Assembly: GCA_020439945.1 (NCBI GenBank)
Contig: JAGRPB010000045.1
Coordinates: 1 to 34,045, forward strand
Length of the DNA stretch: 34,045 bases
Source of the DNA: Verrucomicrobiia bacterium
GTDB taxonomy: Bacteria; Verrucomicrobiota; Verrucomicrobiia; Verrucomicrobiales; DEV007
Direction of reading: 5' to 3'
Shown in pieces: positions 2,419 to 27,050 of this stretch. The notes beneath the pieces were generated by a model. It worked only from the letters and a program-made list of their open reading frames with translations. It had not been told where the DNA came from and did not search any database. A program made the position numbers and the translations under genes. Within the stretch, counting starts at the first letter, position 1, and the number at the start of each line of letters is the position of its first letter.

Positions 2419-3771
2419 ATGTCAGTCGTCCGCTGGATTTGTTTGCTCTTTTTCGCGTTCGTCATCGGCGTATATGCCGGTGAGCCGCCTGCGAACATCC
2501 TCCTCATCACGGCGGACAATCTCGGCTACGGCGATCTGAAATGCTATCGACCCGAGTCGCTCATCCCGACGCCCAATCTGAATCGACTGGCAGCGGAAGG
2601 CGCGCGGCTCACGAGTTTCTATACCGCTTCGCCGACTTGCACGGTGTCGCGGGCGTGTCTGCTCACAGGACGGATTCCCGAGCGTCACGGACTGACCAAT
2701 CAGCTACCGGGAATCGCGGGTAACTGGGGAATCGGATTGCGTCACGAGGAGAAATTGATCCCCGAATTCCTCAAGGAAGCGCCGACTACCTACGCCACGG
2801 GTTGTTTTGGAAAATGGAATATCGGATTCGCCGAGGGATCGCGTCCGACCGAGCGCGGCTTCGACGAGTTTTTCGGTTTCGCCTCTGGCAACATCAATTA
2901 CTTCACCCATAACTATAATGGGAAGCCGGATCTCTATCGCGACATCGAGCCGGTGGTTCGAACCGGCGAATACGCGACCGATCTTTTCGCCGATGCGGCG
3001 ATCGACTTCATCGAGCGAAAGTCGAACGAGGGCGTGCCGTGGTTCTGCTACCTGCCATTCAATGCGCCGCATTTTCCGAATCCGAAAAATCGTCCCAAGG
3101 GCGAACCGAATACCTGGCAAGCGCCGGATCGGGCTTTTGAAGCGGTGGGGCTGTCGCCGGACGAAGCCGATCCGGCGAAACGCTATCGAGCGGTCGTCTG
3201 GGCCCTGGACGAGGCGATCGGGCGCGTTTTGGCGGCGCTGGAAAAAGTAAATCAGTCAGAACGGACTTTTGTCTTTTTCATGTCGGACAACGGCGCGTTT
3301 TTGCTGAATCGCGAAGGCCTCGACGTGGGCAACAACGATCCGCTGCGCGACGGCGGGGTGACCTGCTGGGAAGGCGGCATACGAGTGGCGGCTATGGCGC
3401 GATGGCCGGGAAAAATCGAAGCGGGTTCCGTGATCGATGCGCCGCTGTGGTCGCCCGATTTGTTGCCGGCCGCAGTGGCGATTTCCGGAGCGACCTTGCC
3501 TGGAGGTCGCGTTTTCGATGGAAAAGATCCGCTGCCAATTCTGTCGGGAACCTCGAGTGATTCACCTCACGGCTCCCTGTTTTTTCAGTATGGCAAACAG
3601 GCGGCCCTGCGATCGGGCGACTGGAAGATTCTGCGCGAAAAACCGGATCAACCTTGGATGTTGTTCAATCTCGCGGAGGATCTCTCGGAACGACGAAACA
3701 TGGCGAAAAAGGAGCCGAAACGGCTGCAAGAACTGGAGGACGAATTCGCCCGCTGGAAAGCGACATTCTGA
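2419..3771 (+). CDS. Exported sulfatase (S1, alkaline-phosphatase superfamily) with an atypical maturation motif
   Basis: A 450-residue arylsulfatase-type hydrolase of sulfate esters, exported by an N-terminal signal peptide (about residues 1-20, ending VIGVYAG). The S1 fold begins with ILLITADNLGYGD (28-40), where the usual Asp-Asp metal pair is Asp33-Asn34. The formylglycine site is CTVSRACLLTGR, with Cys74 and Arg78. Other family landmarks are FGKWN near 133-137, FMSDNGA near 290-296 for the second metal pair, and EGGIRV near 320-325. The Pro or Ala normally two residues after the Cys is Val here, unlike the two sulfatases further along. The length is typical. The 25 bases before the ATG have no strong Shine-Dalgarno. 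The substrate cannot be assigned from sequence alone. Confidence 0.92.
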   Translation: MSVVRWICLLFFAFVIGVYAGEPPANILLITADNLGYGDLKCYRPESLIPTPNLNRLAAEGARLTSFYTASPTCTVSRACLLTGRIPERHGLTNQLPGIAGNWGIGLRHEEKLIPEFLKEAPTTYATGCFGKWNIGFAEGSRPTERGFDEFFGFASGNINYFTHNYNGKPDLYRDIEPVVRTGEYATDLFADAAIDFIERKSNEGVPWFCYLPFNAPHFPNPKNRPKGEPNTWQAPDRAFEAVGLSPDEADPAKRYRAVVWALDEAIGRVLAALEKVNQSERTFVFFMSDNGAFLLNREGLDVGNNDPLRDGGVTCWEGGIRVAAMARWPGKIEAGSVIDAPLWSPDLLPAAVAISGATLPGGRVFDGKDPLPILSGTSSDSPHGSLFFQYGKQAALRSGDWKILREKPDQPWMLFNLAEDLSERRNMAKKEPKRLQELEDEFARWKATF

Positions 3772-3784
3772 GTGTTTGGCACAG

Positions 3785-3873
3785 TGTGACATCGGCATCC
3801 CTGCCGGAGCTCTGGATGAAATTCCCGGCTCCGCCGGCTCTATGGAATCACCGGCAGGGATGCCGGTGTCACA
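3785..3873. repeat. Large structured palindrome, family B
   Basis: The arms 3785-3807 and 3851-3873 are 23 bases each and complementary at 22 positions; the arm begins TGTGACATCGGCATCCC. The 43-base interior holds a second stem, ATTCC (3821-3825) with GGAAT (3844-3848), closed by CCGGC (3825-3829) with GCCGG (3833-3837), which share one base at the junction. The whole would fold as a branched hairpin 89 bases long, starting 14 bases after the sulfatase stop. It resembles a REP/BIME-type or small non-autonomous mobile palindrome. I see only one copy in this window. It could also end or protect the sulfatase transcript. Confidence 0.72.
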
Positions 3874-3908
3874 TTGAGGTGATTGCAACAAACTTGCATT
3901 ATCCGGAG

Positions 3909-3968
3909 CCGGGGTCAGATTCGATTCAAGAGGGTTGGGTCGCGGACTTGACCCTGTTTGGTCCCCGG
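3909..3968. repeat. Palindromic repeat, family C (copy 1)
   Basis: Outer arms CCGGGG (3909-3914) and CCCCGG (3963-3968) enclose an inner imperfect stem built on AGGGT (3931-3935) and ACCCT (3951-3955). The inner part, AGAGGGTTGGGTC to GACCCTGTTTG, resembles elements at 12983-13023 and 21005-21040. Together with the family B palindrome it fills nearly all of the 205-base gap between the sulfatase and the ABC ATPase gene. Its right end runs into the ribosome-binding site of that gene. Confidence 0.6.
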
Positions 3969-12982: not shown

Positions 12983-13023
12983 GATTCAACAGGGTTGGGT
13001 CTTGGAGTGAACAGGGTTGAATC
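12983..13023. repeat. Palindromic repeat, family C-related, between the two exbD genes
   Basis: GATTCAAC (12983-12990) and GTTGAATC (13016-13023) are perfect eight-base inverted arms. Inside, AACAGGGTTG occurs twice as a direct repeat (12988 and 13010), and the AACAGGGTTGGGTC stretch resembles the elements at 3909-3968 and 21005-21040. The flanks are purine-rich (GGAAGATGGGAGATCGAAGATGG upstream, given at 12952-12974), and AGGA before 13066 may be the ribosome-binding site of the next gene. Confidence 0.55.
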
Positions 13024-13065: not shown

Positions 13066-13521
13066 ATGAGACGACGGAAGAAGAGAAAGACCTCGATGGT
13101 TGAGATGCAGATGGGGCCCATGATCGACATGGTGTTCCTGCTGCTGGTCTTCTTCATGGTTTCGGCGAAACCGATTCGGCCAGAGACAGATATTCCAATC
13201 GGTCTGCCGGGACAGGTGGCTCAGGAGGAAGCGGTCGACATTCCGGATGAGGCGCGCATTCAAATTCGCGCCGATGGGAACGTGGTGTTGAACGAACAGA
13301 TTCTCGACGGTCCCGATTCCCGCTCGATGCCGGAACTGGTCGCGGTTCTCGATCGTTTCAACAAGGCCGCCCAGAATGCCAAATCCGACGCTCTCGTCAC
13401 CGTGGCGCCGCACGATGCCGTCCCGCATCAGAGACTGGTCGATGTTCTCAATGCCTGCGCCGAAGCGGGTATCACGGGAGTGAGTCTCGCCGATGGGACG
13501 AGTGAGTCCGGTGATCAGTGA
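13066..13521 (+). CDS. ExbD/TolR biopolymer-transport protein (second copy)
   Basis: A 151-residue single-pass inner-membrane protein with a very basic N-terminus (MRRRKKRK) and the helix GPMIDMVFLLLVFFMVSA (17-34) carrying Asp21. The periplasmic part ends ACAEAGITGVSLADGTSESG, matching the ExbD C-terminal pattern. The start is supported by AGGA about five bases upstream. The last codons and the stop lie inside the first copies of a heptamer tandem array. It most likely joins the ExbB and first ExbD of the same cluster. Confidence 0.92.
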   Translation: MRRRKKRKTSMVEMQMGPMIDMVFLLLVFFMVSAKPIRPETDIPIGLPGQVAQEEAVDIPDEARIQIRADGNVVLNEQILDGPDSRSMPELVAVLDRFNKAAQNAKSDALVTVAPHDAVPHQRLVDVLNACAEAGITGVSLADGTSESGDQ

Positions 13522-13573
13522 TCAGTGATCAGTGATCAGTAATCAGTAATCAGTAATCAGTAATCAGTAATCA
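13511..13573. repeat. Nine-copy heptamer tandem array
   Basis: Nine contiguous seven-base units: four GTGATCA (13511-13538) and then five GTAATCA (13539-13573). The array begins inside the final codons of the second exbD, whose TGA stop lies across the first two units (13519-13521). The first four units each contain a GATC site at seven-base spacing. No spacers are present, so it is a simple microsatellite that may vary in copy number. The 62 bases after it, up to the esterase stop, hold nothing recognisable. Confidence 0.95.
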
Positions 13574-13635
13574 GTCGCGGATGAGGAGTCGCCGAGTCCG
13601 ACTCACGAATCGCTCTCCGTGCCGACGGGCGATCG

Positions 13636-20993: not shown

Positions 20994-21004
20994 GCCGGGC
21001 TGAC

Positions 21005-21040
21005 TCAACAGGGTTAGGTCCAGGATCTTACCCTGTTTGA
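21005..21040. repeat. Palindromic repeat, family C (copy after the giant gene)
   Basis: AACAGGGT (21007-21014) and ACCCTGTT (21030-21037) are perfect arms, with further pairing inside (AGGTCC against GGATCT with one wobble). The whole extends from TCAACAGGGT to ACCCTGTTTGA with one bulge. It begins 11 bases after the stop of the giant gene, so it could act as a terminator-like or 3'-protecting hairpin. The sequence shares AACAGGGTTRGGTC with the elements at 3909-3968 and 12983-13023. Confidence 0.65.
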
Positions 21041-23885: not shown

Positions 23886-25454
23886 TCACGGTTTTTCGGA
23901 GTAATCGGGGTGGGGCGTGGGAAGGCGGGCGCCGGAAGTTTCCAGGAGCTGATCGAGACGAAGCCGGAGTTCCCGCCCGCGGTCGGCGTCTTCCGAGAGA
24001 CGGTCGTGCTGCTCGGTGAGATCCTCATCGGTTCGGTAGAGCTCGTCGCGATCGCTTTCGTAGAAATGGAGCAGTTTCCAGTCGCCGGAACGAAGCACCG
24101 AATGCGGCCGGGTCTGACTGGTGAGGCCATCGTCGATGCCAATCGTGGCCGGCGCCTTGGCGAAACCCTTTTCGGGATGGTAGTAGGGAAAATGCCAAAG
24201 CAGGTCGCGGGGTTCGGGCTTCGCCTTTGGATTTTCGAAGACCGGGAGCAGCGAGCGCCCGTCCCGATCCGGCGGAAGCTCGGCGTTTGCCAACTCGGTG
24301 AAAGTGGGGAAGAGGTCGAGCCCGATGATGGGCGTATCGCAGGTTTCGTTGGGGGCGATTTTGCCGGCCCAGCGAGCGAGGAAAGGAACCCGGATGCCGC
24401 CCTCGTAGAGATTCCACTTGCTGCCGCGGAGTGGGGCGTTGCCGGCATAATTGGGATGGCCGCCGTTGTCGGAGGTGAAGACGACGAGGGTATTTTCGGC
24501 GAGGCCGGTTTCGTCGAGCGCCGCCAACAGTTGGCCGACGTAGTGATCGAGCGCGGTGACCATGGCGCCGTAGTGGGCGAGCACGTCGTGGCGCGGATGG
24601 TCGGCGGGGATCTTATCATCGTAGTGATCGTGCAGCCACTTCACCCGGGTGTGGATGGGATCGTGGACGTAGAAATGCGAAACCATCAGGAAGAAGGGGC
24701 GCTCGTGGTCCTGCTTCAGGAATTTGATGGCGCGCTGGGTCATCGAATCCTCGACGAATTCGCCGTCGGGCAGGTCGAGGAAGTCGCGCTTGGATTTGTC
24801 GTTCCAGTAGGAATAGGGATGGCTGCCAAAGTCTTCCTCCGCGACTTGGAATCCTTGGGCTTTCGGTCCGTGCGTCGGGCTCCAGCCCAGGTAGCGCTGG
24901 TAGTGTTGATTGAGGTGCCACTTGCCGAAGAAGGCGGTCTGGTAGCCGGCGTCGGATAGGGTCTCGGCGATGATGGTTTCCTCCAAGGGGAGATCGAGGG
25001 TGAAAGGCGGTGCCCGCAACGGAGTGACCATGGGTTGGTAGCCGGCCTCGGGCTTGGTGACGAACTCGAAGCCGAGTCGGGCCGGGGTTTTTCCCGTGAG
25101 AAAGCCAGCGCGCGACGCCGAGCAGATCGGAGCCGGGGAGTAGGCTTGGGTGAAGCGCAAGCCCTCGGCGGCAAGCTGGTCGAGGTGAGGGGTCTCGAAG
25201 ATCTCCTCTCCGTAGCAACCGATGTCGGTCCAGCCGAGGTCGTCGGCGAGGATGAAGAGGAGGTTGGGCCGGTCGTCGGCGAGGGTGGCGGAGGCGTGAA
25301 ACAACGTGAACGAGAGAACAGCGAGCGTGGCGATTTTTCGGAGAGGCGATTTGCAATCGCCTGAGCTGGTCGTGTTCCTGAGGCTCCGCGGGCGATTGCA
25401 AATCGCCCCTCCGAATTCGCTCGCGGTCCCCGTGACTTTCTCGAAATCGCTCAT
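23886..25454 (-). CDS. Exported sulfatase with a palindromic repeat in its N-terminal coding region
   Basis: An S1-type sulfatase of 522 residues from the ATG at 25454, which overlaps the stop of the upstream sulfatase gene (ATGA) and so is likely the real start. The family core begins PNLLFILADDLGWTDIGCYG (63-82), with metal-binding Asp71-Asp72. The formylglycine site is CSASRAGFLTGK (Cys111, Arg115), and later landmarks are FFGKWHLNQH, VVFTSDNGGHPNY and YEGGIRVPFLARW. The signal-like hydrophobic segment IATLAVLSFTLFHASATLA is at 41-59 and not at the very N-terminus. Residues about 14-39 come from a family A palindrome, which gives the motif GAICNRP and, later, GDCKSPL. The signal may therefore have an added 40-residue leader. 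No alternative ATG/GTG/TTG lies between the repeat and the signal. Confidence 0.88.
   Translation of the reverse strand: MSDFEKVTGTASEFGGAICNRPRSLRNTTSSGDCKSPLRKIATLAVLSFTLFHASATLADDRPNLLFILADDLGWTDIGCYGEEIFETPHLDQLAAEGLRFTQAYSPAPICSASRAGFLTGKTPARLGFEFVTKPEAGYQPMVTPLRAPPFTLDLPLEETIIAETLSDAGYQTAFFGKWHLNQHYQRYLGWSPTHGPKAQGFQVAEEDFGSHPYSYWNDKSKRDFLDLPDGEFVEDSMTQRAIKFLKQDHERPFFLMVSHFYVHDPIHTRVKWLHDHYDDKIPADHPRHDVLAHYGAMVTALDHYVGQLLAALDETGLAENTLVVFTSDNGGHPNYAGNAPLRGSKWNLYEGGIRVPFLARWAGKIAPNETCDTPIIGLDLFPTFTELANAELPPDRDGRSLLPVFENPKAKPEPRDLLWHFPYYHPEKGFAKAPATIGIDDGLTSQTRPHSVLRSGDWKLLHFYESDRDELYRTDEDLTEQHDRLSEDADRGRELRLRLDQLLETSGARLPTPHPDYSEKP
25339..25413. repeat. Palindromic repeat, family A (copy 2), inside a sulfatase gene
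   Basis: The arms 25339-25361 and 25391-25413 read CGGAG-A-GGCGATTTGCAATCGCC against its reverse complement with one mismatch. The core is identical to that of 2282-2353. The element is 75 bases by these limits, a multiple of three, and lies in the first 40 codons of the leftward sulfatase without breaking its frame. The intervening sequence differs from copy 1, so the two arms are the conserved part. Confidence 0.85.
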
Positions 25455-26899
25455 GGGAACTGTTTCGCGAGTTTCTCGGCTAATGTGGCCACGTTTTTGG
25501 CCTGCGATTCCTGACCCGCCAGATTGCGGGTTTCGCCGGGATCGTTTTCGTGATCATAGAGTTCGCGGGCGGTCACCTCGCCGTTTTCGAAGGAGCGCCA
25601 TTCGGTGTAGCGCCAGCGGTCGGTGCGCATCGAGTAGCCAATGGCCTCGCGATTTTTCCTCGGGCCGTAGAACGGATGCTCGTGCTGGGTGAAGGCGGCG
25701 TCTTTCACCGAGACCGACGGATCGGCGATCACTGGCGCGAGGTTCGCTCCCTCGAGTCGTTTGCGGAGGTCGCCTTCGATGCCAGAGAGATGTGCGAGGG
25801 TCGGATAGAGATCGACCAACTCCGCCAGCGAGTCGGTGGTCTTTCCATGTCCGGCTGACTCACGCGGATCGGCGATGATGAGCGGGACACGCGCGTCGAG
25901 CTCGAAGTTGGAGGTCTTTCCCCAGAGGGTGTGCTCGCCGATGTGAAATCCGTGGTCCGAGGTAAAGACCACGATGGTATCCCCGTCGTGGCCGCCTTCC
26001 TCGAGGGCATCGAGGATCTCCCCGACCTGGGCATCGAGAAAGCTGATGGAGGCGTAGTAGCCGTGGCGATAGTGGCGGACCTCGTCATCGGTGAAATCGC
26101 GGTCCTTGGGAACGAGACCGTAGCCCTTGATCTCTTTGGAGTCGTGCATCGCGATCTCGGGAACTCCCTCTGGAGCATAGGGCGGGTCGGGCATGGTGAG
26201 ATCCTCCGGATCGTAGAGATCCCAGTATCGTTTCGGCGCGACGAAGGGCAGGTGAGGGCGCCAGAAACCGACCGCGAGGAAGAAGGGCTGCCCGTCGACC
26301 GGATGCTCGCGCAGCATGGCGGCGGCGAGATTGGCGATCTGGCCATCGCGGTAGGCGGTGTCGGGGACATCGAGATCCTCGGTCACGGGCGCCTTGAACT
26401 CCTCCTGGATGGTCCGCAACGCCGGTGGCGTGTTCTTGTAAACGGTGTCGTCGGCGTGGGTGCCTTTGTGGAGCACTTCGTCGATCGACCACGAACGCCG
26501 GTCCTGGGTATCGCCGGTGTTGTGAAAGATTTTCCCGATGTCCTGGCAAAAGTAGCCGTGATTCTTGAAATGCTGCGGCAGCGTTACCAGGGTCGAGCCC
26601 CCGGGCGTGGTGTCACGAAACCATTTCGACAAATCATCGACTCCCGTAGTGTTCGGGCGCAGCCCGGTCAGGAACGAGGCTCGCGACGGATTGCAGACGG
26701 CCTGCTGGCAATAGGCGCGGTTAAAGACGAGGCCGCGCTCAGCGAGACGGTCGAGGTTCGGCGTTACCGCGAAGTCGTCTCCGTAGGGGCCAATGGCGCA
26801 GTTGAGATCGTCGGCGACGAGGAAGAGGACGTTGGGCTTGCCGTCGGCTGCTCGACCAACACTTCCCGCCAGTGCCAGCATTCCCAGAAGCAGGATCAA
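25451..26899 (-). CDS. Iduronate-2-sulfatase-like exported sulfatase
   Basis: A sulfatase resembling the iduronate-2-sulfatase branch of S1, seen in PNVLFLVADDLNCAIGPYG, the formylglycine site CNPSRASFLTGLRPNTTGV, GKIFHNTG, AVGFWRPHLPFVAPKRYWDL and VFTSDHGFHIGEHTLWGKTS. Counted from the TTG at 26899 it has 482 residues, with a signal peptide LLLGMLALAGSVGRAADG (about 4-21) and Cys69 as the site of oxidation. An ATG at 27016 would give 521 residues but its first part (about residues 9-32) is translated from a palindromic repeat, so the later start is favoured with reservation. It is coupled to the next sulfatase by an ATGA overlap. It should remove 2-O-sulfate from uronic acid or similar units. 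Confidence 0.88.
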   Translation of the reverse strand: MILLLGMLALAGSVGRAADGKPNVLFLVADDLNCAIGPYGDDFAVTPNLDRLAERGLVFNRAYCQQAVCNPSRASFLTGLRPNTTGVDDLSKWFRDTTPGGSTLVTLPQHFKNHGYFCQDIGKIFHNTGDTQDRRSWSIDEVLHKGTHADDTVYKNTPPALRTIQEEFKAPVTEDLDVPDTAYRDGQIANLAAAMLREHPVDGQPFFLAVGFWRPHLPFVAPKRYWDLYDPEDLTMPDPPYAPEGVPEIAMHDSKEIKGYGLVPKDRDFTDDEVRHYRHGYYASISFLDAQVGEILDALEEGGHDGDTIVVFTSDHGFHIGEHTLWGKTSNFELDARVPLIIADPRESAGHGKTTDSLAELVDLYPTLAHLSGIEGDLRKRLEGANLAPVIADPSVSVKDAAFTQHEHPFYGPRKNREAIGYSMRTDRWRYTEWRSFENGEVTARELYDHENDPGETRNLAGQESQAKNVATLAEKLAKQFP

Positions 26900-26921
26900 G
26901 CGGACGGCGGGAGGAGAGGAG

Positions 26922-26991
26922 GGGCGACAATCCTGTCGCCCATGCGGAAGGCAAGGACTGGGAAAGCGGGCGAGACGCCCGCGCTCCCAGT
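26922..26991. repeat. Two-hairpin palindromic repeat, family E, at the 5' end of a sulfatase gene
   Basis: Hairpin 1: GGGCGACA (26922-26929), loop ATCC, TGTCGCCC (26934-26941), a perfect eight-pair stem. Hairpin 2: GCGGGCG (26966-26972), loop AGA, CGCCCGC (26976-26982), extended by ACTGGGA (26957-26963) against TCCCAGT (26985-26991). If read in the sulfatase frame it gives peptides such as WERGRLARF and HGRQDCRPS, which I recall as typical translated repeats in this kind of genome. It lies between the FG-GAP gene and the likely start of the iduronate-sulfatase-like gene. Confidence 0.75.
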
Positions 26992-27050
26992 GGAGGGCTC
27001 GAAGAATTCTCAACATGGTGGGAAATCAGTTGTCCAGATTTCGATCGTTC

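Follow-up and report, generated by a model that had tools for sequence, protein, structure and literature searches.

A palindromic REPIN in frame ahead of the putative signal peptide of a verrucomicrobial sulfatase

In a Verrucomicrobiia bacterium (GTDB DEV007; assembly GCA_020439945.1, contig JAGRPB010000045.1), a near-perfect palindrome lies between the start codon and the putative signal peptide of a sulfatase gene. This raises the question of whether the repeat is part of the protein and, if so, how an exported enzyme came to carry it. REPs are short non-autonomous elements thought to be moved by RAYT, an IS200-like HUH tyrosine transposase. Those found at the N-terminus of an open reading frame have been left open to question, since translation may really begin downstream of the repeat. 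An initial annotation of the window (the whole stretch of 34,045 nucleotides that was analyzed) proposed that a REP-like element had inserted in frame and moved the signal inward. Here, the genome of the window (G000) was compared with three congeners (G001, G002, and G003).

The leader palindrome and its repeat family

The gene (23886–25454, minus strand) encodes a sulfatase of 522 residues (Pfam PF00884, E 3.8e-59), to which 54 matches at E ≤ 1e-30 are encoded across all contigs of G000. Its ATG (25452–25454, minus strand) overlaps the TGA stop of an upstream sulfatase as ATGA. The same overlap is kept by the orthologues in G001 and G002, which upholds the proposal that this start is native. 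As annotated, the hydrophobic segment begins only at residue 41 of the translation, and the putative hydrophobic and cleavage region (IATLAVLSFTLFHASATLA; 25278–25334, minus strand) was assigned to residues 41–59 by translation and orthologue alignment. Orthologues align with the focal protein from about residue 44 on. The mature part differs from its G002 orthologue with a dN of 0.18 and a dS of 0.88 over 463 codons, and judged by these rates it is under purifying selection.

The palindrome has arms of 25 nt (25337–25361 and 25391–25415) that are 96% complementary, with one mismatch, and are spaced by 29 nt. It consists of two inverted REPs with a GGAG tag, referred to as a family-A REPIN (25337–25415, minus strand), and occupies codons 14–39 of the leftward gene; both the position and the frame given in the initial annotation are borne out by the translation. 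That annotation also relied on a length of 75 bases, a multiple of three. The length depends on the chosen ends, being 79 nt by the full arms and 73 nt from GGAG to CTCC, and this argument was dropped as the ends are arbitrary. What counts is the open frame through the repeat, which does hold; all three leftward frames are open across the element. In the focal frame, the repeat reads as about 26 residues, and the peptides encoded include SLRNTTSSGDCK.

The proposed genome-wide search found 25 occurrences of the family-A half-site GGCGATTTGCAATCGCC in G000 at no more than one mismatch, and none of the reversed control. The tagged 22-mer GGAGGGGCGATTTGCAATCGCC, searched with up to two mismatches, occurs 31 times in G000 and is absent from G001, G002, and G003. 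Among the 57 genomes searched, tagged family-A copies beyond G000 were found only in G008 (once) and G021 (three times). The copies are mostly arranged as inverted pairs, as in REPINs. The GGAG tag 5' of the hairpin is conserved at 96–100% per position in the 25 half-sites, and copies share CGGAG. By these features, the palindromes are classed as REP/REPIN elements with a GGAG tag. A second family-A REPIN, also noticed in the initial annotation, occupies the intergenic gap at 2282–2353, before another sulfatase (2419–3771, plus strand). Family B (CACTGGGAGCGCGGGCGTCTCGCCCGC) is represented by 15 half-sites in G000 and 75 in G002. K-mer discovery in a 0.53 Mb sample of the genome did not bring out any abundant REP family, given the low copy numbers of families A and B; the families were subsequently collected by pattern hits with the surrounding stretches.

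Family-A REPINs lie on both sides of a RAYT open reading frame (G000:C428:3814–4446), which matches Y1_Tnp with 39.2 bits (cut-off 23) and REP_Tyr_transpos with an E-value of 1.9e-20 and 73 bits, just under the cut-off of 80. Its nearest relatives in the congeners are 41–54% identical. A third family, D, adjoins a RAYT gene at G000:C217. GGAG-tagged REPs flank RAYT genes at G021:C57, G003:C61, and G000:C217 (loci among L327, L328, L329, and L331), and the RAYT gene at G001:C264 is flanked by GTAG-tagged REPs; hence both tags coexist in the genus. The REP superfamilies described in PMC3733652 carry a GTAG tag (or a degenerate form of it) or a CGTC tag, and the string GGAG is absent from the main text of that paper. 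As families A, B, and D all carry GGAG, they were filed in neither of these superfamilies.

Other repeats were also observed in the window. A dispersed repeat (GACTCAACAGGGT.AGGTC), whose partial inverted repeats end in ACCCTGTT, occurs at 3923–3960, 12983–13020, and 21002–21039; its core, with 9 copies, ranks first among the real 14-mers of the 0.53 Mb genome sample. The heptamer GTGATCA/GTAATCA forms a tandem array at 13511–13580. Just past the stop of the sulfatase at 2419–3771, an inverted repeat (3782–3807 and 3851–3876), with arms of 26 nt that are 92% complementary, could represent a terminator or a further pair of REPs.

Orthologues and a likely history of the leader

Orthologues of the focal sulfatase were found in G001 and G002 (71–74% identity), and in both genomes the upstream sulfatase adjoins them. 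The alignment of homologues that had been suggested as a check supports a REP-like element, an in-frame insertion, and an inward shift of the signal. In G001, the ATGA start is kept and the protein runs straight into the signal peptide with no repeat (MKRLLMKRFPPGMICLMLAL / MKRLLMKRFPPGMICLMLALVPISRG). In G002, the ATGA start is followed by M-I-DFE-NP-TG-SA and then by a different REP at the same place, a family-B REPIN that is in frame up to the signal. The leader in the window, M-S-DFE-KV-TG-TA, matches this G002 stretch, with M-x-DFE in common. No homologue with the same N-terminal residues but no palindrome was found. Orthologues that lack an insertion were likewise found for other genes described below, among them a hydrolase in G003 and a cytochrome protein in G001 and G003.

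Alignment with the family-B REP of the G002 orthologue also revealed a probable decayed family-B half-site in the window (CACGGGGACCGCGAGCG; 25418–25434, minus strand). It agrees with the family-B start CACTGGGAGCGCGGGCG at 14 of 17 bases, a score equalled by 2 of 200,000 random 17-mers from the window. The family-A element thus probably landed inside an older family-B REP that was already in the leader. The initial description of a single insertion into the N-terminus can be retained as far as the in-frame insertion is concerned; the N-terminus, however, was seemingly not pristine. A likely history, as we infer from the alignments, is that the ancestor shared by G000 and G002 already had a family-B REP, into which family A inserted later in G000.

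The upstream sulfatase (25451–27016, minus strand) also carries REPs between its ATG and its signal, and its start is ambiguous (TTG at codon 40, ATG at codon 46). A family-B half-site at 26966–26988 (minus strand) is read as WERGRLARF, and a family-D REP (GGAGGGGCGACAATCCTGTCGCCC on the other strand; the same repeat as beside the RAYT gene at C217) lies at 26918–26941 (minus strand). The two REPs fall within the first 37 codons (26918–26988, minus strand). The family-B peptide reads HWERGRLTRP in G002 and, decayed, PWECGRLVRF in G001, such that WE[RC]GRL stands in the same frame in all three genomes although the G001 palindrome has decayed. A later start is possible in each of the three.

The repeated occupation of the focal leader by REPs in two lineages could mean that the repeat, though translated, is not neutral. 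A stem-loop 40 bases past the start codon might lower or couple expression of the operon's second sulfatase, and would have been kept for that effect. The fold is strong: RNA of 25320–25470 (minus strand) reaches −75.1 kcal/mol (z −7.3), the DNA of the palindromic element folds with a z of −8.2, and none of 200 shuffled sequences folds as stably. However, hairpins in coding regions can be unwound by ribosomes, only the frame and not the repeat sequence is conserved between the species, and simple tolerance also predicts repeated occupation. A selected role for the hairpin is thus considered unlikely.

Probable reading of the repeat as protein

If the repeat were an untranslated leader, translation would have to begin at a non-standard codon downstream, and the hairpin would act on the mRNA, either on its stability or by limiting expression. 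N-terminal REPs in open reading frames of Pseudomonas, Citrobacter, and Stenotrophomonas were judged to be probably non-coding by Di Nocera et al. (PMC3733652). Many REPs in the present genomes directly precede genes that start after the repeat (L012, L020, L273, L287, and L298), and the hairpin is very stable. The start codons of the focal gene nevertheless argue against this explanation. An in-frame listing revealed no usable ATG, GTG, or TTG between the repeat and the signal core, which also bears on the reservation of the initial annotation that translation might start after the repeat at a non-standard codon. The sole start codon between the repeat and the mature protein is a TTG that leaves nine residues of the signal. 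The G002 orthologue, with its different REP, has no ATG, GTG, or TTG outside its repeat between the repeat and the mature protein. Moreover, the ATGA start recurs in the orthologues, including the one without a repeat, where it is used directly. Without a usable later start, an exported functional enzyme can be made only if translation begins ahead of the repeat, barring the use of a rare start codon; initiation at such a codon (for example ATC or ACG) downstream of the repeat may occur. An n-region of 40 residues is also long, which weighs against translation of the repeat. Judged by the reading frames, translation of the repeat into about 26 additional residues is almost certain, and an untranslated leader is quite unlikely.

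The same arrangement was found in other genes. In a predicted hydrolase, a family-B REP precedes the signal in both G000 and G002 (MLRRSVRPS[LGARASRPL]RQSCLFLLS..). The gene starts at an ATGCTGA overlap with the upstream stop, and in neither genome does a usable ATG, GTG, or TTG follow the repeat, which again speaks against an untranslated leader. The G003 orthologue has the same ATGCTGA start and an empty site. A third gene (G002:C487) is also without a usable later start. An initial count of nine translated N-terminal REPs was reduced to three gene families once start codons within the signal had been listed. A later GTG, TTG, or ATG is possible in the upstream sulfatase and in two G002 genes (L286 and L302). 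In the latter two, the family-B REP ends in CCAGTG or CCCGTG, so that an in-frame GTG immediately precedes the signal core; the start codon may here come from the repeat itself.

REPs also occur in frame inside multi-domain proteins. In the cytochrome protein, the repeat gives 24 residues between cytochrome domains and is absent in G001 and G003. A ThuA protein carries one between its NPCBM and CxxCH domains that is absent in G000, a hydantoinase carries one between its hydantoinase A and B parts and has orthologues without the insertion, and a large AAA protein contains another. REPs inside multi-domain proteins must be translated, which also speaks against the non-coding explanation. Such positions are the exception: most of the 81 REP clusters surveyed (family A in G000, family B in G000 and G002) are intergenic, most often between convergent gene ends, and a minority lie in frame within genes. 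Positions before signal peptides account for 3 of 7 unambiguous gene families, compared with about 4% of coding sequence (crude binomial P about 0.003); with small numbers and a home-made gene caller, this enrichment is suggestive only.

An assembly artefact, in which REP copies were wrongly joined by the metagenome assembler, is very improbable. In its favor, the assembly comprises 474 contigs, with several copies of family B close to contig ends. Against it, ordinary reads are longer than the element, G001 and G002 show an identical order of flanking genes, and an open frame continues on either side.

Proposed origin and relation to known systems

The explanation that we favor, at a probability of roughly 80%, is that REPs mobilized by RAYT survive in genes where the protein tolerates them, here in an n-region that is probably discarded with the signal. 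A RAYT-linked process, for which the RAYT at C428 is the candidate, would have placed a REPIN downstream of the native start codon and ahead of the signal's hydrophobic core, and the insertion site was probably the older family-B REP. With the frame still open, ribosomes starting at the ATGA overlap would read about 26 residues as part of a long n-region. As the n-region should be cut off with the signal, the mature sulfatase would be unchanged and the insertion, presumably nearly neutral, would survive. Selection would purge insertions that break the frame or the mature protein, leaving REPs where the protein can spare the residues.

A bolder extension is that, in this verrucomicrobial lineage, successive REP families recurrently land in one niche, the stretch from the start to the signal core. 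Old REPs would decay to n-region codons while new ones insert, and export leaders would keep being rebuilt from palindromes linked to a GGAG-tagged REP/RAYT branch. We offer this as a tentative and rather doubtful proposal.

In-frame palindromic insertion is already known; the position and the clean comparative evidence are what is unusual here. Di Nocera et al. (2013, PMC3733652) described in-frame REPs, among others in the verrucomicrobium Opitutus terrae. Many of the intragenic REPs in that paper lie at the N-termini of open reading frames, and many of those were treated as possibly extragenic. Both sets are short inverted-pair palindromes with a conserved tag, are associated with RAYT, and in some cases encode 20–30 residues in frame. 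The present elements differ in their GGAG tag and in their position just before the signal core, which was not found in that paper's account of intragenic REPs; in addition, the N-terminal start-codon problem is settled here by sequence for two genes in two species each. A literature search on REPs with signal peptides found nothing relevant. The Rickettsia palindromic elements (RPE), cited in PMC3733652, are likewise translated and tolerated in frame in protein-coding genes, whereas the phylum and the repeat sequence differ and the present elements are pairs of REPs with a GGAG tag, in a genome that also encodes RAYTs. The REPINs and RAYTs described in PMC3116915 and PMC2817692 share the unit of two inverted REPs, a RAYT gene flanked by REPs, and species-restricted copies; their tag is GTAG instead of GGAG, and here one family-A copy lies in coding sequence. 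Long autotransporter signal sequences (PMC2805444) also place an unusually long N-terminal stretch ahead of the export signal. For these a domain organization was described, whereas the present extension is repeat-derived and differs between sister species.

Because the operon starts overlap and no usable start codon follows the repeat, translation through it appears nearly unavoidable, and a mobile repeat would thus supply part of an export leader. This suggests a rule by which small mobile elements are tolerated in those parts of a protein that its mature form no longer contains. Annotators should be aware that, in genomes of this kind, a long extension at the N-terminus may be genuine and derive from a repeat.
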